A stretch of 14,589 nt of DNA, from the NCBI GenBank assembly GCA_946007445.1, contig CAMGAL010000017.1, positions 1 to 14,589 on the forward strand, read 5' to 3'. The notes below the pieces were generated by a model that did not search any database, had not been told where the DNA came from, and was given only the letters and a program-made list of their open reading frames with translations. Below are positions 485 through 7,856 of this stretch, in pieces. A program made the translations under genes and the position numbers. The stretch is from an uncultured Mediterranea sp. (GTDB taxonomy: Bacteria > Bacteroidota > Bacteroidia > Bacteroidales > Bacteroidaceae). The number at the start of each line of letters is the position of its first letter. Position 1 is the stretch's first letter.

Positions 485-838
485 TCAGTGGGGTACGGTG
501 TTGACGCTATTTTGTTCAATAAATTCAAACTCATGGCTCTTGAATAGCATGTCCATCACTTTGTCTCGCTGCTCACGCCGCAGCTTGAACTGCACGATGG
601 TCTCAATCTCCTCGTTCTTCGAATCGTACGGAATGTACTTCTTCGGATAGGTGAAGAGGTCGATTACGTCAACACCGAGGCAATTTGCGATTATCGCAAG
701 TTCGCTTACCTTCAACTCGCGCTTCCCATTCTCCACATTGCTGATGGCGGAGATGTCCACACCGAGTGAATCTGCCAGTACCTTTTGAGAGATACCCTTC
801 TCAAGGCGGATAGTCTTAATGTTCTCTACTACGTTCAT
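485..838 (-). CDS. XRE-family (Cro/CI-like) transcriptional repressor
   Basis: This 117-residue protein has a standard HTH_3 domain over about residues 4-60: an IKTIRLEKGISQ helix, then QKVLADSLGVDISAISNVEN (helix-turn-helix) and a closing LAIIANCLGVDVIDLF. The C-terminal half is charged and helical, with no S24/LexA-type peptidase motif. If it is an immunity repressor, it is not the RecA-cleaved type. ATG at 838 was chosen over an in-frame TTG at 847 because the former begins directly at the HTH domain. A TAAATTTG box at 851-844 (minus) resembles a Bacteroides -7 element and would give a leaderless or nearly leaderless message, but no clear -33 box is seen. The gene diverges from the early operon, the usual place for the lysogeny repressor, and it is the best candidate to bind the palindromes at 895-995 and 5829-5865. 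Confidence 0.88.
   Translation of the reverse strand: MNVVENIKTIRLEKGISQKVLADSLGVDISAISNVENGKRELKVSELAIIANCLGVDVIDLFTYPKKYIPYDSKNEEIETIVQFKLRREQRDKVMDMLFKSHEFEFIEQNSVNTVPH
685..699. promoter_or_regulatory. Perfect operator-like palindrome inside the repressor gene
   Basis: TTGCGA-TTA-TCGCAA is a perfect 6-3-6 inverted repeat of the same form as the one at 5829-5843. It lies in the coding sequence for the LAIIAN segment of the HTH domain, so codon constraint could explain it. An alternative is an internal autoregulatory (roadblock) operator. Confidence 0.4.
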
Positions 839-894: not shown

Positions 895-995
895 TTGAGA
901 AAATCACAAATTATATTTGCTTATTTCGCAAGATGCGATTATATTTGCACCGTTGTTGTCGGTGATAATCGCAAACAAAGTTGTGATATCTACAA
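895..995. promoter_or_regulatory. Operator cluster in the divergent early control region
   Basis: Four sites resemble the palindrome TTGYGA-N3-TCRCAA: 895-909 (TTGAGA/TCACAA), 917-931 (TTGCTT/TCGCAA), 960-974 (CGGTGA/TCGCAA, good right half only) and 981-995 (TTGTGA/CTACAA). Start-to-start distances are 22, 43 and 21 bases, or about two or four helical turns, so all sites would face the same side of the helix. The second site lies between the -33 and -7 boxes of the rightward promoter. The likely ligand is the adjacent XRE repressor, possibly in competition with the small HTH protein encoded at 1033. Confidence 0.6.
916..947 (+). promoter_or_regulatory. Early rightward promoter, Bacteroides consensus
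   Basis: TTTG (916-919), 20 bases, then TATATTTG (940-947) match the Bacteroidetes primary sigma factor consensus (TTTG-N19-21-TAnnTTTG) exactly. Transcription should start near 953-955, giving a leader of about 80 bases before the ATG at 1033. A second TATATTTG at 912-919 has no well-spaced -33 box. Confidence 0.75.
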
Positions 996-1032
996 GAATA
1001 ATAGCGTATTGTCTAACTTAATCCGAGTAAAA

Positions 1033-1242
1033 ATGGTATTTACTGACTACATGAACACACTGCCCAACGAGAAGCAGGAGACCATCAAGAGGATATCCGA
1101 GGTGACGATGACCTCCGTCTCTTCGGTCTATCGCTGGATCTCAGGAGAGATTGACCCGCCTGCCATCAAGAAGAATGCCATCGCGGCACTGCTGAAGATG
1201 GATGTGAATGAACTATTCCCTGCGGATCATGGAAAACGTTGA
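1033..1242 (+). CDS. Small HTH DNA-binding protein (Cro/early-regulator-like)
   Basis: A 69-residue protein. The frame is open from 877, but the promoter at 916-947 lies inside that extension, so ATG 1033 is taken as the start; ATG 1051 is a close alternative. A helix-turn-helix is visible at about residues 16-40 (IKRISEVTMTSVSSVYRWISG), followed by helices ending in LLKMDVNELFP, the ending typical of XRE-type proteins. It is the first gene of the rightward early operon and overlaps the next gene by 14 bases. Position and size suggest a Cro-like antagonist of the repressor, or an activator; the sequence does not decide between them. Confidence 0.72.
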   Translation: MVFTDYMNTLPNEKQETIKRISEVTMTSVSSVYRWISGEIDPPAIKKNAIAALLKMDVNELFPADHGKR

Positions 1243-1789
1243 GTTCTACAACACACCGGACGGTGATGTGATGTACAAGATGCAGGGCCGTGAGGTGAGG
1301 GTGCTGCGCGAGAGTGACCGCGATGTGATAAGAGATGTGCTGGCCATCATTCGCGACAGATATCCACAGGCGCATGAGGCACTGATGAAACTCTACTCCG
1401 TGAGCGAGCTGAATCGCGTCTATTTCGAATACCGTGTGGTGCATCGGTTCATCCGCTGTAACTTCGGCGAGTACGACCAGCTGCATCCGGACATCGATGG
1501 ATTGGGCCGATTCTGCATGGAGGAGGTGCGTTGCCCGCTCCGCGGTGAGTGCAAGCACGAGGGCGTGATATGCCGCCCGAAACTCTTCTCCAGGCTGACG
1601 GAGCGTGAACTGGAGGTGATGCGTCTGGTGGTGTGCGACCACCTTACATCGCAAGAGATTGCAGACGAATTGTGTATTTCACCCTGTACCGTGCAGCGCC
1701 ATCGGGACAATATCAAGGCCAAGTTGGGCCTGCGTACGACGGCCGACATGGTGGAGTGGTGGATGAAGAACCACCCGGAAGGAGTATAA
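1229..1789 (+). CDS. LuxR-type HTH transcriptional regulator with cysteine cluster
   Basis: A 186-residue protein. Residues 123 to about 176 form a canonical GerE/LuxR HTH: LTERELEVMRLV, then SQEIADELCISPCTVQRH, then IKAKLGL. Just before it are four cysteines at residues 96, 102, 108 and 115 with His110, a possible metal-binding knuckle. The N-terminal part is helical and matches no sensor domain I recognise (no receiver or autoinducer-binding domain). ATG 1229 overlaps the stop of the preceding gene, suggesting translational coupling; the frame continues 21 bases upstream without a better start. It probably activates later promoters of the element, since it sits in the early operon and has an activator-type HTH. 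That role is inferred from position. Confidence 0.82.
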   Translation: MENVEFYNTPDGDVMYKMQGREVRVLRESDRDVIRDVLAIIRDRYPQAHEALMKLYSVSELNRVYFEYRVVHRFIRCNFGEYDQLHPDIDGLGRFCMEEVRCPLRGECKHEGVICRPKLFSRLTERELEVMRLVVCDHLTSQEIADELCISPCTVQRHRDNIKAKLGLRTTADMVEWWMKNHPEGV

Positions 1790-1800
1790 AACATAAGACT

Positions 1801-2226
1801 ATGATACTGAAGCGGATAATCATTCATTCCCGGTCATTGGACGAGTTTGTCAGGCTCTCCCACATGTATGTATATAAAGTCCGGCTTATCGGTTTCATCG
1901 ACCGACAGAGCGGGATGCTGGCGGAGGTGGAGATAGAATACTCCGATTACTTCGACTTGGATAAACTGATAGACGATCTGAGTAAGTATAGTGTAGAGAG
2001 TCCTGTCGTGGAGAAGATGTACGCCATAGACAAGAGAGTGGCTGGACGAGTGATAGACAAGGTCAGCTTCGAGGCACTTCCCTTCGAGGTTAGAGTGAGT
2101 AAACCCTATACCGTGAATGTGCTGGGCGAAGAGCGCAAGGTGGTGGAGATGAAAATTAGTACGATGTTCCCCCATTTGGCGGATTTGATTGTATTTGGCG
2201 AGGACTATTCCCTCCGTAACGAATAA
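1801..2226 (+). CDS. Conserved-looking protein of unknown function in early operon
   Basis: A 141-residue protein that I do not recognise. It starts at an ATG (context actATG) 11 bases after the LuxR-type gene, with the primase starting 4 bases after its stop. The sequence alternates beta-rich and charged stretches (IIIHSRSLDEFVRL, EVEIEYSDYFDLDKLIDDL, KVVEMKISTMFPHLADLIVFG) and has no transmembrane segment, cysteine cluster or obvious HTH. It looks like a compact alpha/beta domain. The tight spacing suggests a role with the primase in replication or its control, but nothing in the sequence shows this directly. Confidence 0.72.
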   Translation: MILKRIIIHSRSLDEFVRLSHMYVYKVRLIGFIDRQSGMLAEVEIEYSDYFDLDKLIDDLSKYSVESPVVEKMYAIDKRVAGRVIDKVSFEALPFEVRVSKPYTVNVLGEERKVVEMKISTMFPHLADLIVFGEDYSLRNE

Positions 2227-2230
2227 GCGT

Positions 2231-5098
2231 ATGATCGACATCAATGACATATACCGGGCCACGAACCACGGACTGGACATCATCCTATACTACTACCCGC
2301 AGGCAGAGGGGTGTGTGGACAACAAGAAGAAATTCAAGTGCCGCCCTGAAGAGGACGACGCATCTGCTTGCCTGAAACGGTATGACGACTGCTACAAGGT
2401 GACGGACTTCGGAGACAGCGCACGGGCCATGAGCCCCATCGACATCTGCATGAAGGAGGAGCGGGTCAAGTTCGCCGAAGCCATCATCATGCTGGCAGGC
2501 CGGTACAACGTGACGGACGAGCTGCGGCGTGAGGTCAACAAACCAATCTTCGAGAAGCGTCCGGCCACACCCGACGAAGAGGAGGGCAAACGGTGGTTCG
2601 AACTGGCCGAGGAGTTCACTCCTGGACAGCTGGCCGTACTGGGTCCCAAGGTGAAGGCCGAGCACTGCAAGCGGCTGAACTGGCACGCGGCACGCAGCGT
2701 GAGCTACGTCAAGAACCGCGAGGTCATCACCCGCACGGCTACAGAGACCTATCCCATCTTCATCCGTCAATGCGTCATCGACGAGAAGGATCGCAAGAAC
2801 CCCGACGTGACCTGCTTCTATAAGGTCTATGAACCGCTCAACCCTGATAAGAAGTACCGGTTCAGCTACCTGCCCGAGGGGGCCAAGCCCAGGAGCTACA
2901 CCAACGGCCTGGCCGAGCTTCGCAAGGCCTATACTGACCTGAACAACACGTTGGAGCGAGAGTTCCGCAATGACCCCGCCAACGAGAACAAGCCCTATCT
3001 CTACTCCAAGCTCCCGGAGGTGTTCATCTGTTCCGGCGAGCGCGACGCCCTCTGCTGTGCCGCCATGGGCAGGCATCCGGTTTGGTTCAACTCCGAGACC
3101 TACGAGGTGACCCAGCAGGAGATCAATCAGCTGGCCAAGTATGCCGAGGTCATCTACAACATCCCCGACATCGACGAGACCGGCCTCCGACGGGGCAAGG
3201 AGTTGGCCCTGCGCTATCTCGACATCCATACCGTCTGGTTACCAGACTGGCTGCGCAACTACCGAGACCGACGGGGTGGACGGCGCAAGGATCTGCGCGA
3301 TTTCGTCGAGGTGCGCCCTGAGCCACGCGAGTTCGACAACCTGCTGGCCTTGGCTATGCCGGCCAAGTTCTGGACGCAGACCTACGTCAAGAGCCGCGAT
3401 TATTACAAGTATGACATCAACACCTCCTACCTCCACTACTTCCTCACCCTAAATGGATTCTACACCCTGCGAGACGAGACCAGCGACGAGGTACGCTACA
3501 TCCGCAAGCGCGGTTTCGTGGTACAGCGCATCAAGGCGCAAGACATCCGCAACTTCCTCCGCTCCTGGGCGGAGGAGCGGTTCTTGCCCGTGGATATTCG
3601 CAACCTCATTCTCAACTCGCCCCGTACCAACGACACGACACTGGCGCTGCTCAACGAGATAGAACTCAACTTTGAGTCATACACCCCTGACAAGCAGTAT
3701 CTCTACTTCCGCGACTGCGTCTGGCAGGTGTGCCGTGAGGGGGTGAAGGATGTCACCACGCAGCGAGTCAACGACAATTGCGTTTGGCAGGAGAACATCA
3801 TCGACCACCGGGTCAAGCTGCTGCCTCGCATGTTCGACTGGCAGGTTCGCACCACCCTGGATGGAGAGCGTAAGGTCGATCTGGAGGTGACAGACACCCG
3901 TAGCAAGTTCTTCGGATACCTCATCAACACCTCACGCATCTACTGGCGCAAGGAACTGGAGGAGCTGTGGCAGGATCGCGGAGCCGATGAGATGGAGACC
4001 TATCGCAACGCCCACCGCTTCGACATAGCCGGACCCCTGCTCAACGCCGACGAGGTGGCCGAGCAGAAGCAGAACCTGCTGAACAAACTCTTTGCCATCG
4101 GCTATAACCTGCACCGCTACAAGTCGCCCTCACGGGCTTGGGCCATCTTCGCCATGGACAACAAGGTAGGCGACGAGAACGAGTGCAACGGACGAAGCGG
4201 CAAGTCTTTTTTCTTCAACGCATTCCGGTACTTCACCGACATGGTGACACTCTCCGGTCGCAACCCCAAGCTCCTGGACAATCCGCACGTATTCGACCGC
4301 GTGGACAGGCACACCGGCGTGCTCTACATCGACGACTGCTCCAAGTATCTCCCCGTCGAGCAGTTCTACGACGTCATTACCGGAGGCATGACCGTCAACC
4401 CAAAGAACAACCGCTCCTTCTACATCGACTTCGACCACTCGCCCAAACTCTGCTTCTCGACCAACTACGCCCCGCGGGAGTTCAACCAGAGCACGGCTGC
4501 CCGTATGCTATACCTCGTATTCTCGGACTACTACCACGAGAAGACCGAGGAGAATGACTACCACGAGTCGCGCCGCATCTTCGACGACTTCGGACAGAAC
4601 CTCATGACCTCGCCCGACTACACCGAGGATGACTGGTCGGCCGACTTCAATTTCCTGGCGCAGTGCCTCACTTTCTACCTCGACATGACCGCCATCAACC
4701 TCAAGATCCAGCCGCCCATGGGCAACATCCTGCTACGCAAGTACCGTTCCGACATGGGTGACGCGTTCGAGGATTGGGCGTTCGGCTACTTCGCGCAGCA
4801 GGGTGAGAACGTCAACTGCTTCATCCCACGCAAGAAGGCTTACGACGAATTCCTCGACTTCTCCAAGCTCAGCAAGTCATTCTGGACGATGAACCGCTTC
4901 ACCAAGGCGCTGAAGGGGTTTGCCATGTACTGCCCCTACATCAGCGAGTACAATCCCGCGGACCTGGCAGACAGCACAGGCCGCTTGCAGCGCAAGATTG
5001 ACGGAAAGACAGAGGATGTCATCTACATGCGCACCCTCCTGCCGGACGGTACGGCGGCTCCTCCCTCTGAACCGAACGAAGTCAAACTTCCATTCTGA
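2231..5098 (+). CDS. Phage primase-helicase (toprim plus SF3 helicase)
   Basis: A 955-residue replication protein. Residues ~20-85 resemble the core of a primase N-terminal domain (ASACLKRYDDCYKVTDFGD...MSPIDIC) but lack a clear CHC2 zinc motif. A toprim domain follows, with Glu270 in CSGERDALCC and Asp313/Asp315 in NIPDIDETG. The C-terminal part is a superfamily 3 helicase: Walker A NGRSGKS at 653-659 (Lys658), Walker B VLYIDD at 697-702, and motif C-like FSTNY at 742-746. The domain order matches D5-type and plasmid/phage primase-helicases that prime and unwind at the element's own origin. ATG 2231 was chosen over an upstream TTG that overlaps the preceding gene. The repeat array at 5485-5728, about 390 bases downstream, is the natural candidate for its origin. 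Confidence 0.92.
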   Translation: MIDINDIYRATNHGLDIILYYYPQAEGCVDNKKKFKCRPEEDDASACLKRYDDCYKVTDFGDSARAMSPIDICMKEERVKFAEAIIMLAGRYNVTDELRREVNKPIFEKRPATPDEEEGKRWFELAEEFTPGQLAVLGPKVKAEHCKRLNWHAARSVSYVKNREVITRTATETYPIFIRQCVIDEKDRKNPDVTCFYKVYEPLNPDKKYRFSYLPEGAKPRSYTNGLAELRKAYTDLNNTLEREFRNDPANENKPYLYSKLPEVFICSGERDALCCAAMGRHPVWFNSETYEVTQQEINQLAKYAEVIYNIPDIDETGLRRGKELALRYLDIHTVWLPDWLRNYRDRRGGRRKDLRDFVEVRPEPREFDNLLALAMPAKFWTQTYVKSRDYYKYDINTSYLHYFLTLNGFYTLRDETSDEVRYIRKRGFVVQRIKAQDIRNFLRSWAEERFLPVDIRNLILNSPRTNDTTLALLNEIELNFESYTPDKQYLYFRDCVWQVCREGVKDVTTQRVNDNCVWQENIIDHRVKLLPRMFDWQVRTTLDGERKVDLEVTDTRSKFFGYLINTSRIYWRKELEELWQDRGADEMETYRNAHRFDIAGPLLNADEVAEQKQNLLNKLFAIGYNLHRYKSPSRAWAIFAMDNKVGDENECNGRSGKSFFFNAFRYFTDMVTLSGRNPKLLDNPHVFDRVDRHTGVLYIDDCSKYLPVEQFYDVITGGMTVNPKNNRSFYIDFDHSPKLCFSTNYAPREFNQSTAARMLYLVFSDYYHEKTEENDYHESRRIFDDFGQNLMTSPDYTEDDWSADFNFLAQCLTFYLDMTAINLKIQPPMGNILLRKYRSDMGDAFEDWAFGYFAQQGENVNCFIPRKKAYDEFLDFSKLSKSFWTMNRFTKALKGFAMYCPYISEYNPADLADSTGRLQRKIDGKTEDVIYMRTLLPDGTAAPPSEPNEVKLPF

Positions 5099-5103
5099 GC
5101 ACC

Positions 5104-5364
5104 ATGGACGAGAGGCACGACTACATAGTGAACTGGCGGGAGTATCTGCACGGATTGATGGACGACCCCGAGGCGGTGGCCTACATGAATCGCGTGCGCG
5201 ACTTCTTCGAGCTGATGCAACCCGGCCAGAAGGTACGTCTGCAAGCAGCTGCCCCCAAACAGACTTGGCTGTGGGTAGCAACAGGAGCATTCCTCTGCGA
5301 GGGCGACCACGGGAACCGCTACGAACTGGACGACGACTATCTATTCCTCTGTTGCTTCGCCTGA
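5104..5364 (+). CDS. Small protein of unknown function after the primase
   Basis: An 86-residue acidic protein, not recognised. It starts five bases after the primase stop and is the last gene before the early terminator, so it is almost certainly in the early operon. Its N-terminal half is helical and charged (IVNWREYLHGLMDD, AYMNRVRDFFELM); the C-terminal half looks like short beta strands (KVRLQAA, WLWVATGAFLC, YLFLCCF). It could be a small accessory to replication or an antirepressor, but nothing specific supports either. Confidence 0.62.
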   Translation: MDERHDYIVNWREYLHGLMDDPEAVAYMNRVRDFFELMQPGQKVRLQAAAPKQTWLWVATGAFLCEGDHGNRYELDDDYLFLCCFA

Positions 5365-5386
5365 GAGCGAGGCATTTCTGGCACGG

Positions 5387-5426
5387 AAATGGCTGGCAAC
5401 CAAAAGTTGTCAGCCATTTTCTTTTT
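5387..5426 (+). terminator. Rho-independent terminator of the early operon
   Basis: A 14-bp stem pairs 5387-5400 with 5406-5419 (one G-T pair) around the loop CAAAA and is followed by a T-rich tail to 5426. It lies 22 bases past the stop of the last early gene. Confidence 0.88.
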
Positions 5427-5484
5427 CGGGCCGTCCGACGGCATCCGCTTCTCTCTCACTCTTATTCTATTTTCTACTAAAAAA

Positions 5485-5728
5485 GTGTGACTTTGTGACG
5501 GAAGGAGAAAAGGTGTATAAAAATAGTTAATAATCAAAGGGATAACTCCGTCACAATTTTGGTCACAATTGTCACAACTCGCAAAATAAAGTGTGACGGC
5601 GGAGAAAAGTGTGACCGCCGTCACAAAGTCACAGAATCGTTTTCAGGGCTCCGCTCCTTTTTGTGACTTTGCTATATTTTTGTGATTCAGATAGATAGGT
5701 CACACCGGTCACAGAGTCACACGGTCAC
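5485..5728. repeat. GTGAC/GTCAC repeat array, candidate replication origin (iterons)
   Basis: Fourteen exact GTGAC or GTCAC pentamers lie in 244 bases, most extended to GTGTGAC or GTCACA. GTGAC copies start at 5487, 5495, 5593, 5611 and 5663; GTCAC copies at 5550, 5562, 5571, 5620, 5628, 5699, 5708, 5716 and 5724. The last four are tandem at 8-9 base spacing. Inverted pairs occur: TTGTGACGGA (5493-5502) with TCCGTCACAA (5547-5556), and TGTGACGGCGG (5592-5602) with CCGCCGTCACA (5615-5625). The stretch 5506-5546 is very AT-rich, like an unwinding element. No gene is present from 5365 to 5905. Position after the primase suggests iterons of an origin. A multi-site regulatory array is the alternative. 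Confidence 0.65.
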
Positions 5729-5828
5729 ACTTTTTTTGGGCAAAATCAGGCTTACAGAAAAATTCGGTGAATTATTCACGCTTCCAGGCTGTTCAGCGGA
5801 TTTATGCTGTAAAAATTTATAGTTTAAT

Positions 5829-5865
5829 TTGCGAATTTCGCAACCTAATGATGTGATATTCACAA
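5829..5865. promoter_or_regulatory. Paired operator palindromes upstream of the gene at 5906
   Basis: Two 6-3-6 palindromes: TTGCGA-ATT-TCGCAA (5829-5843, perfect) and ATGTGA-TAT-TCACAA (5851-5865, five of six pairs). Their starts are 22 bases apart, the same distance as the first pair in the early control region. The first shares 13 of 15 bases with the site at 917-931. The second covers the -33 position of the promoter at 5852-5881, so bound protein would block it. Confidence 0.65.
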
Positions 5866-5881
5866 ATTATTTCTATATTTG
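5852..5881 (+). promoter_or_regulatory. Promoter for the gene at 5906
   Basis: TATATTTG at 5874-5881 is a perfect Bacteroides -7 box. The best -33 match is TGTG (5852-5855) at an 18-base spacing, so the promoter is weaker than consensus, or activator-dependent, and overlaps an operator palindrome. Confidence 0.55.
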
Positions 5882-5905
5882 CATGATTATCAAAACATTA
5901 AATAC

Positions 5906-6409
5906 ATGGAGAAGGAGAGACCAAGTGTAATAATAGAGCTGGACCCCATGCTGCAGGATTACCTGTACCACGAGTTCGGCAAGACCACCGACGAGGGGGT
6001 CTACATCAACTGCAAGCATGATATCGGACAGTTCATCCAGTCGATGATCACACTCAGCGACCGGCCACCCAAACAGGAGCTGAAGGATTTCCCCATCAGG
6101 ATATACCTGCCGGTGCAACAATGGAACCATCATATCCTACGGGAGAACTTCATCTATATTCCTGGCTGGAAGCAGGACTTCATACGCAAGTATATCGAAG
6201 CGAGCTTCCACCTCAAACAGCGGGAGTTCTTCGTGACGGGGTACGAGAAGGGTTTCACACAGGATATGATCGTCAAGTCGTTCCTCGATGCCTACAACAT
6301 CAAGCATAACCAATGCAATTATGATGCCGTGAAGAAGTACGACTACCGTTGCCGGAAACGTACGGTCCAAGAGGTGCGAAAAGCTATCCAGATGTCCCTG
6401 TTTGATTAA
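5906..6409 (+). CDS. Protein of unknown function, operator-controlled
   Basis: A 167-residue protein, not recognised. ATG 5906 lies about 18 bases after the expected transcription start; an upstream TTG in the same frame overlaps the promoter and was rejected. The C-terminal third is basic and helical (KGFTQDMIVKSFLDAYNIK, YDAVKKYDYRCRKR) and could hold a DNA-binding helix-turn-helix; the N-terminal part is acidic with several aromatic residues. No transmembrane segment or catalytic motif is seen. Two palindromes matching the early-region operators sit in its promoter. It probably belongs to the lytic switch or early-late transition, for example as a late-gene regulator. That is inference from context. 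Confidence 0.68.
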   Translation: MEKERPSVIIELDPMLQDYLYHEFGKTTDEGVYINCKHDIGQFIQSMITLSDRPPKQELKDFPIRIYLPVQQWNHHILRENFIYIPGWKQDFIRKYIEASFHLKQREFFVTGYEKGFTQDMIVKSFLDAYNIKHNQCNYDAVKKYDYRCRKRTVQEVRKAIQMSLFD

Positions 6410-6439
6410 GTTTGTTTAACGGATTAAATTTTAATCAAA
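6401..6439. promoter_or_regulatory. Weak promoter and inverted repeat before the gene at 6483
   Basis: TTTG (6401-6404), 20 bases and TAAATTTT (6425-6432) match the Bacteroides promoter at all but the last base. The same stretch holds the inverted repeat TTTGATTAA (6401-6409) / TTAATCAAA (6431-6439) and an inner palindrome GATTAAA-T-TTTAATC (6422-6436). Either a promoter with an operator or a weak AT-rich hairpin could be meant. Confidence 0.3.
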
Positions 6440-6482
6440 TATCTATGGTTCACGAATTTACGATATAATTTTTTATAGTTTT

Positions 6483-6887
6483 ATGAACAATAACAGCAAA
6501 CATAGACAAATCAAAAGTGTAGGTTTCACTTGGACGGAAAATGCGCAAGTGCTCCATCACCCCGGGGAGCCGAAGGCCGAAGTCGAGGCAGTATGGACGC
6601 TTCTCCCTGTCACGAAGGCAACCTGCTCGGACAAGGTTGAAGATACGGGCTTGCATACCGTGGAGTTCTCGGCGTTAATCACCGACACCAGCTGCTTGGA
6701 ATATATCCTGTTAGTCGAATTGTTCGACCGTCCGGGCATCCTGCGGCTGAACTATACCGACGGCAGCCAGTGCATCGTAGGTGACGACGAATTCCCGGTG
6801 TGGGTGACCACTCACCAGTCAGATTCACCGTCTGTATTCCAACTCAGCTTCAAGCGGACGGCACCCCATGGCATCCTATTCATATAG
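6483..6887 (+). CDS. Phage-type beta-rich protein of unknown function
   Basis: A 134-residue protein. The C-terminal half (ILRLNYTDGSQCIVGDDEFPVWV and QLSFKRTAPHGILFI) recalls small beta-sandwich proteins found in Bacteroides phage and contractile-tail clusters, with a strand-forming 'YTDG...VVG.ddfP' element and a final 'LSFkRtaP'. I cannot name the family with certainty. There is no signal peptide or membrane segment. The gene is followed directly by the promoter of the head operon, so it is transcribed separately from the protease and capsid. A virion component such as a decoration or adaptor protein is plausible. Confidence 0.62.
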   Translation: MNNNSKHRQIKSVGFTWTENAQVLHHPGEPKAEVEAVWTLLPVTKATCSDKVEDTGLHTVEFSALITDTSCLEYILLVELFDRPGILRLNYTDGSQCIVGDDEFPVWVTTHQSDSPSVFQLSFKRTAPHGILFI

Positions 6888-6889
6888 TC

Positions 6890-6921
6890 CTTGTTGACAG
6901 AGGATTCCAACCCTACTTTTG
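6890..6921 (+). promoter_or_regulatory. Head-operon promoter
   Basis: CTTG (6890-6893), exactly 20 bases, then TACTTTTG (6914-6921) fit the TTTG-N20-TAnnTTTG consensus with one mismatch. The protease ATG lies 20 bases after the -7 box. Confidence 0.65.
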
Positions 6922-6941
6922 CACAAAAATAGTGATTCGAT

Positions 6942-7856
6942 ATGGCTTTTTCTGTTTTGTTATCAACGATATTGCGCGGCAAGTGGCTCATCGCTCCACG
7001 AGAGGTCGAAGCCAACAGCGTCATCCTGCAAAAGTTGCTGGATGGCTCCACACCGGGCAGCAACAAGAGATTGAGCGAAGAGCAGCCGCTTCCTTACTCC
7101 TTCGCTGACGCTTCCGGCAAGATGAGCCGCTCCAAGGGTCGGTTCGCTGATGCACCCGAAGGGAGCACGGCCATCATCCCGATTCGGGGGACCCTCATCA
7201 AGTATGGCACCCTCTGCAGCTACGGTACGGAGGAATATGCTGAGATGATCCGCGAGGCGGCCAACGAGCCGAACATCTCCAGCATCGTGCTGGATTGTGA
7301 TAGCGGTGGGGGAGCCGTCGATGCCATCGCGCCGCTGGTGGATGCCATCGCCGACTGCAAGCGCAAGAACAAGGGTTGTGTGGCAGCCGTTGACCTCTGC
7401 GCGTCGGCCATGTACTATGTGGCCTGTCACTGCGACTCGATTATCTGCACCAACAACATCAGCTCAGAGTTGGGCAGCATCGGGGTGATGATGAGCTTCC
7501 CCGACTACGCCAAGTACTACGAGAACATGGGCATCAAGATGCACACCATCTACTCCAATCTCTCCGAATACAAGAATGCTCCCTACGAAGCTGCGCTCAA
7601 GGGCGAATACGACAAGATCAAGACGGAGGAGCTGGATCCGCTGGCTCGTCAGTTCCAGGAGACGGTCAAGCGACGCCGCTGCAACCTGAAACTCGACACC
7701 GAAGGCATCCTATCCGGAAGGATGTTCTATGCGGACGAGGCGGTACGGGTGGGTTTGGCCGACGAGGTGGGTACCATCCAGACTGCCATCCAGCGCAGCC
7801 GGGAGATAGAGGCGACTACTTTAATCCATAATTATATCAATCTTAAAACCAAGTGA
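6942..7856 (+). CDS. S49-family serine peptidase, probable prohead maturation protease
   Basis: A 304-residue ClpP/crotonase-fold protease of the SppA/S49 type. Visible are IVLDCDSGGGAVDA (the 'DSPGG' loop, ~residues 114-127), the nucleophile Ser155 in DLCASAMYYVA, ELGSIGVMMSF after it, and the general-base Lys211 in SEYKNAPYEA. The 56-residue Ser-Lys spacing is close to that in SppA. Phage members (like lambda gpC) cleave scaffold and capsid subunits during prohead maturation. No signal peptide is obvious, as expected for a cytoplasmic phage protease. It is followed immediately by the capsid gene, whose ATG lies two bases after this stop; the capsid's N-terminal scaffold region is its likely substrate. 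Confidence 0.9.
   Translation: MAFSVLLSTILRGKWLIAPREVEANSVILQKLLDGSTPGSNKRLSEEQPLPYSFADASGKMSRSKGRFADAPEGSTAIIPIRGTLIKYGTLCSYGTEEYAEMIREAANEPNISSIVLDCDSGGGAVDAIAPLVDAIADCKRKNKGCVAAVDLCASAMYYVACHCDSIICTNNISSELGSIGVMMSFPDYAKYYENMGIKMHTIYSNLSEYKNAPYEAALKGEYDKIKTEELDPLARQFQETVKRRRCNLKLDTEGILSGRMFYADEAVRVGLADEVGTIQTAIQRSREIEATTLIHNYINLKTK

Follow-up and report, generated by a model that had tools for sequence, protein, structure and literature searches.

The 14.6-kb contig CAMGAL010000017.1, whose whole length is called the window here, contains the left part of a Bacteroides prophage, with an immunity region in which a single 117-residue repressor probably acts on paired operators at two promoters and on a further operator inside its own gene, the latter limiting or steadying repressor expression. 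The predicted operator is a palindrome of 15 base pairs (bp), TTGMGA-N3-TCKCAA. Two copies lie at the promoter of the early operon, two more are identically placed at the promoter preceding a gene that starts at position 5906, and one falls within the repressor reading frame. An initial annotation of this DNA had proposed that one repressor silences both the early operon and gene 5906 through a family of seven phased sites. Judged from sequence, this core idea fits the phage and is partly confirmed, with two of the seven sites to be dropped and one of the two perfect sites best read as an operator in the repressor gene. The repressor gene, promoters and predicted operators are given below, with scores in bits and conserved slots as described in the following paragraphs.

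485–838, minus strand: repressor gene, 117 residues, helix-turn-helix (HTH) family HTH_3 (XRE/Cro-CI type; Pfam E-value 2.9e-14; PHROG transcriptional repressors)
685–699: predicted intragenic operator at +139 from the repressor ATG, codons 47–51; perfect palindrome, 18.1 bits
845–852, minus strand: −7 box TAAATTTG of the predicted repressor promoter, 14 bp before the ATG
895–909: predicted distal operator of the early pair, 17.7 bits; −71 slot, at most two mismatches in 11/17 loci
916–947, plus strand: early promoter, with −33 TTTG at 916–919, a gap of 20 and −7 box TATATTTG at 940–947
917–931: predicted proximal operator of the early pair, in the −33/−7 spacer, 12.4 bits; −93 slot, at most two mismatches in 15/17 loci
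5829–5843: predicted distal operator of the second pair; perfect palindrome, 18.1 bits
5851–5865: predicted proximal operator of the second pair, covering the −33 position; 11.0 bits alone
5874–5881, plus strand: −7 box TATATTTG of the predicted second promoter, from the box scan and the joint operator/−7 score

All seven sites of the initial annotation are present where it had placed them, and the distances it gave between their starts are correct. Against the consensus used there, TTGYGA-N3-TCRCAA, sites 685 and 5829 are perfect, 895 and 5851 carry one mismatch, and 917, 960 and 981 carry two. Loose matches with up to three mismatches are not enriched in the window (15 found, 17.2 expected), and 145 of 200 shuffled sequences reach the window's number or more, so that only the quality and the position of the sites count. 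With respect to quality, the window stands out within its own assembly of 2.43 Mb (394 contigs, 73% complete), where 9 places match with at most one mismatch, 4 of them in this contig, against 2 for a reversed control. Both perfect sites of the whole assembly fall inside the window contig, and the exact form TTGHGA-N3-TCDCAA is found at 3 places, all of them in the window (685, 895 and 5829), with none for the reversed control. Two further exact operator matches were found in G127 and G1218; no repressor homologue was recognised in a six-frame reading of the stretches around them.

The repressor loci of 10 relatives supplied 26 operators for a weight matrix, with the window left out; L075, L081, L082 and L083, as well as the unclear-motif slots of L074, L077, L078 and L079, were excluded by hand. 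The five top-scoring positions of the window by this matrix are 5829, 685, 895, 917 and 5851. The score of 5829 and 685 is reached in none of 200 shuffles, and the number of positions expected per window at the score of the others is 0.005 for 895, 0.32 for 917 and 0.75 for 5851. The seven-site family thus holds for these five members and does not extend to 960 and 981, which were rejected because their scores of 2.2 and 6.9 bits (29.6 and 5.1 expected) are at chance level. A 14.7-bit site is found at −134 in L065, near position −136 of the window, so that some phages may have a weak site on the downstream side of the early promoter. Position 5879 (10.8 bits, 0.82 expected) lies 28 bp from 5851, out of phase, and is not claimed as an operator.

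The −33/−7 promoters are of the Bacteroides type. At both promoters the operators start 23 bp (917 and 5851) and 45 bp (895 and 5829) before the −7 box, and in both pairs the distal operator outscores the proximal one. In order to score this geometry, both offsets were applied before every TANNTTTG with at most one mismatch; because the early promoter supplied these offsets, it is the second promoter that puts them to a genuine test. The joint operator/−7 score is 30.2 bits at 940 and 29.2 bits at 5874. No other place in the window scores above −11.8, and 1000 shuffles reach at most 9.8. The initial annotation had described pairs phased by about two helical turns; the pairs are indeed 22 bp apart, and their identical 23- and 45-bp offsets make the geometry tighter than was claimed. 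Its placement of 917–931 between the −33 and −7 boxes of the early promoter agrees with the box positions. It had also named shuffled sequences as rich in phased sites as the outcome that would speak against it; shuffles do reach the window's number of loose matches, counted without phasing, but not its joint phased score. Taken together, the relatives' matrix and the joint score bear out the proposal of one repressor family and the same operator/−7 geometry at the early promoter and before gene 5906. The low-scoring sites 917 and 5851 may therefore stand as operators, weak alone and supported by their position.

Relatives of the repressor were found by alignment-based searches with its homologues at 7 loci in viral contigs and 20 in genome contigs; single-sequence scans of the viral contigs with the repressor and with the 5906 product had found no relative. 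In whole genomes, with the window's own counted each time, the repressor was found in 6 of 158 for the genus, 9 of 393 for the order and 1 of 395 for a phylum-wide set. After removal of duplicates 34 distinct loci remained, of which those with at least 43% identity form clade A (n=17, window included); L058, with 44.6% identity over a short stretch and no FTYP motif, was excluded. Counted from the repressor ATG and allowing two mismatches, operators occupy a slot at −92 to −94 in 15 of the 17 loci; the slot at −70 to −72 is filled in 11 and that at −48 to −51 in 7. The +139 site, present in 15 of the 17 with one mismatch at most, is the one shared most widely. The window uses the −93, −71 and +139 sites. 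Conservation in relatives, which the initial annotation had suggested as a check, is thus observed around the homologous repressor genes.

In 15 of the 17 loci, 23–24 bp separate the fixed −93 slot from the early −7 box (23–25 bp by our own arithmetic when measured from each locus's own operator), which gives good support to the prediction that the 117-residue repressor controls the early operon. The exceptions are L076 and L080, which have no upstream operator at all. With a bp of slack, the joint score is at least 25 bits at 8 of the 10 distinct relatives' repressor loci scanned. In L076, two tandem repressor-like genes (50% and 24% identity) occupy 2950–3620 without a divergent operator region. 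On the repressor side, a −7 box with at most one mismatch starts at −12 to −14 in 16 of the 17 clade A loci, with no TTTG at the −33 place of the window's repressor promoter. A box 12–14 bp before the ATG would make the repressor mRNA probably leaderless or nearly so.

The initial annotation listed 685–699 correctly as a perfect site without saying that it lies inside the repressor gene. Codons 47–51 encode L-x-x-I-A, a motif of HTH_3 proteins, so that conservation of the protein could mimic an operator; three tests argue against this. In clade A, synonymous uniformity beyond pooled codon usage places codons 47, 48, 50 and 51 at ranks 1, 6, 3 and 2 of 83 columns, and none of 100,000 random four-column codon sets reaches their mean constraint. 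Codon 52, just outside the site, ranks 77 of 78 (this ranking, of 18 rows, still counts L058). The sister clade B has TTTCAA-type sites upstream and TTTCAA-N3-TTGCAA, or a sequence near it, at +139; the same codons are constrained there, with 2 of 100,000 random sets as extreme (12 sequences and 53 columns, after L117, a near copy of L116, was dropped). The identity of codon 50 differs between the clades as each operator demands, being ATC in 16/17 clade A sequences and ending in TT in 12/12 of clade B. Finally, the intragenic word differs from the upstream region of its own locus by 2.30 mismatches of 12 over 40 loci, compared with 3.32 for random pairing (standard deviation 0.18; 0/20,000). 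This permutation includes L084 and L085 (38–41% identity) and eight other distant loci that belong to neither clade, and it ignores kinship, so that it measures agreement at the level of clades and not independent events.

Pairings with at most one mismatch are found in 0 of 442 cases between clades, compared with 9 of 17 own pairs in clade A and 5 of 13 in clade B. Inside clade A, a locus's own upstream region gives no better fit than those of its clade-mates (1.88 and 1.91 mismatches), which is expected if the operator type is fixed within a clade; the agreement between intragenic and upstream words is therefore between clades and not locus by locus. One clade A locus, L081, has a +139 site with 2 mismatches. 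The site at 685–699 is kept at the DNA level and is a likely operator within the repressor frame. We lean towards the wider reading that small phage-type repressors across Bacteroidota carry their own operator in frame, in the codons after the recognition helix, that specificity and dual-coded operator change together, and that the site belongs permanently to a complex of three or four operators which sets the repressor level. If this is true, a repressor could acquire a new specificity only through accompanying synonymous and spacer-codon changes within its own gene.

The units that the two promoters would serve, and the hairpin between them, are as follows.

1033–5364, plus strand: early operon, comprising an HTH-like gene at 1033, a LuxR-type gene at 1229, a gene at 1801, the replication protein gene at 2231–5098 and a gene at 5104
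5385–5421, plus strand: terminator-like hairpin of 16 pairs with a T run, 3' of the early operon
5906–6409, plus strand: gene under the predicted second promoter, encoding a conserved protein of 167 residues with 71 homologues at E ≤ 0.001

A dimer of the HTH_3 repressor would bind each 15-bp operator. The sites at 895 and 917, 22 bp apart and on one face of the DNA, would cover the core of the early promoter, and those at 5829 and 5851 would cover in the same way a promoter that restarts transcription past the early terminator, serving gene 5906 and, probably, the head genes that follow. In a lysogen, dimers on the 22-bp pairs, perhaps bound cooperatively, would occlude the −33/−7 region of both promoters and keep both units off. 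Should early transcription stop at 5421, silencing of gene 5906 and the genes downstream would require the second pair. A repressor bound at 685–699, which lies 210 and 232 bp from the early pair, would limit or steady its own expression, either as a roadblock in the path of elongating polymerase or through a loop with the promoter operators.

That the intragenic operator acts through DNA looping with the promoter operators, and not as a roadblock, is quite possible, if a little short of probable. At 10.5 bp per turn, the spacings of 210 and 232 bp in the window correspond closely to 20 and 22 turns, and in 12 of the 17 clade A loci the best upstream match lies 231–233 bp from the +139 site. 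In clade B, however, the corresponding distance, to the first slot as best match, is 254–258 bp in 7 of 13 loci, or about 24.4 turns, and a strict looping phase common to the two clades was not upheld. Moreover, the distance from +139 to the promoter may follow simply from the lengths of protein and promoter.

Several observations weigh against control of both promoters by the one repressor in the form proposed here. The operators 917 and 5851 are weak taken singly by matrix score. The initial annotation had placed 5851–5865 at the −33 position of the second promoter, and the site does cover that position, but there is no TTTG there (GATG is found at gap 20), so that the assignment of this promoter rests on its −7 box and operators. 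No −50 site is recognisable in the window, a slot filled in 7 of the 17 clade A loci. Two of the 10 relatives fall short of 25 bits for the exact 23/45 geometry, namely L074 (15.6) and L077 (−13.1), the operators of the latter sitting one to two bp off these offsets. The +139 site is missing from L082, and in L076 and L080 it occurs with no operator upstream. Finally, neither of the two relatives found to carry both genes has operators before the 5906 homologue; these are L114 (repressor 59% and 5906 homologue 61% identical) and L102/L065 (54% and 50%), in each of which the sole high joint score is at the early promoter. As a switch kept across relatives, the two-promoter arrangement of the initial annotation is accordingly seen in the operators at the repressor loci and not in those before the 5906 homologue.

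The absence of such operators in the two relatives speaks for the alternative that the repressor controls its own divergent early region only, the pair at 5829 and 5851 being a by-product or belonging to another regulator. Among seven phages compared, a 6-3-6 near-palindrome common to both promoters (2 mismatches of 12) was found only in that of the window and in none of the six others, a comparison that would miss operators of other shape and that for BT-TP2 covers 68 bp of the early region only. On the other hand, 5829 is one of only two perfect sites in the assembly and has a partner at 22 bp with the same distances to a TATATTTG box, and the early region of L114, which has a repressor of the same family, matches the second region of the window with 1 mismatch of 12. 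We therefore consider this alternative unlikely and prefer control of both promoters by the one repressor. The closest relatives of both genes (78–95% identity for the repressor, 81–93% for the 5906 product) are known here from protein sequences only, and the case for repressor control of gene 5906 is drawn from this phage's own sequence. Since the pair before 5906 is not shared by L114, L102/L065 or the six other phages, it looks like a phage-specific recruitment, and as far as seen the link between the two promoters would be particular to this phage. Less likely again is that 685–699 is no operator and resembles one by chance through common codons of the L-x-x-I-A motif. In its favour, this part of the HTH domain is conserved, L076 and L080 keep the sequence without operators upstream, and own pairs in clade A show no advantage over clade-mates, but neither the excess synonymous uniformity in both clades nor the clade-specific codon 50 and pairings agree with it.

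The order along the window is repressor gene, early operon, hairpin, repeat array, gene 5906 and head maturation protease. The repressor gene is divergent from the early operon with shared operators in between, the arrangement of a lysogeny switch, and the hairpin at 5385–5421 separates the early operon from the second unit; a terminator consensus scan of 5300–7000 found 2 candidates where 1.5 are expected. The assignment to a prophage follows from the presence of a structural gene, the head maturation protease (PHROG) at 6942–7856 after gene 5906, and from a gene order shared with phage BT-TP2; no integrase was noticed within the window. The minus strand at 3–422 encodes a protein that we take to resemble the host queA type, and the prophage boundary probably lies between this gene and the repressor gene. 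Between the early terminator and the second promoter, at 5440–5740, TGTGAC/GTCACA repeats occur 14 times in 301 bp, compared with 3 times in the other 14,288 bp. In relatives the same place is taken by arrays of different short words (GTTACA/GTTACG in L043, L044 and BT-TP2; TTGTAC/TTGCAC in L102; GTTGTA in L114), and the repeats of the window are possibly iterons of a replication origin. The 5906 product was modelled with a predicted local distance difference test score (pLDDT) of 84; the model had no match in the PDB at E ≤ 0.001 (best E 1.9), and a tblastn search of phages with this protein gave no match.

The only phage record matched by the window in a blastn search was BT-TP2 (PQ571279). 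It resembles the window in its overall gene order, with a divergent repressor and HTH gene, a replication protein 54% identical to that at 2231–5098, a gene named as a regulator and a head maturation protease. Its repressor, like that of hankyphage, is other than the window's, and no near-palindrome common to its two promoters was found within the region compared. RepCHP is the master repressor of hankyphage, a Bacteroides phage, and was tested by silencing; the passages on it (12 of 17 places) describe no phage operators (PMC12135933). No paper describing the present repressor family or its sites was found by title or start of abstract, which is weak evidence that they are absent from print, the subscription literature being mostly uncovered. 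The predicted sites would thus provide a concrete operator code for a Bacteroides phage, with its geometry relative to −33/−7 promoters. As in TP901-1, with CI/Mor, and in lambda, with CI, a single repressor goes with a set of related palindromes close to divergent promoters; there are three sites for TP901-1 CI (OL, OR and OD), and lambda CI forms long-range loops between OL and OR, and the passages on these systems describe no operator inside the repressor gene (PMC11149083). Unlike lambda-type CI, the window repressor has 117 residues and only HTH families in Pfam, with no C-terminal peptidase found.

By profile, the nearest solved structures to the repressor family are controller proteins of restriction-modification (R-M) systems (3clc and others, E about 1e-9). 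One such controller, C.Kpn2I, has a site within its own coding region that acts as an elongation roadblock, a position that the abstract of that paper calls unique among known C-proteins (PMC6237814). The window repressor is similar in having a predicted site inside its own reading frame. Unlike C.Kpn2I, however, its neighbours are phage genes, with no R-M family among the window proteins scanned, and its intragenic site, found together with promoter operators, is conserved at many loci. The predicted operator and the protein reading it share one segment of DNA and vary jointly from clade to clade, which is relevant to the divergence of immunity specificities among repressors.

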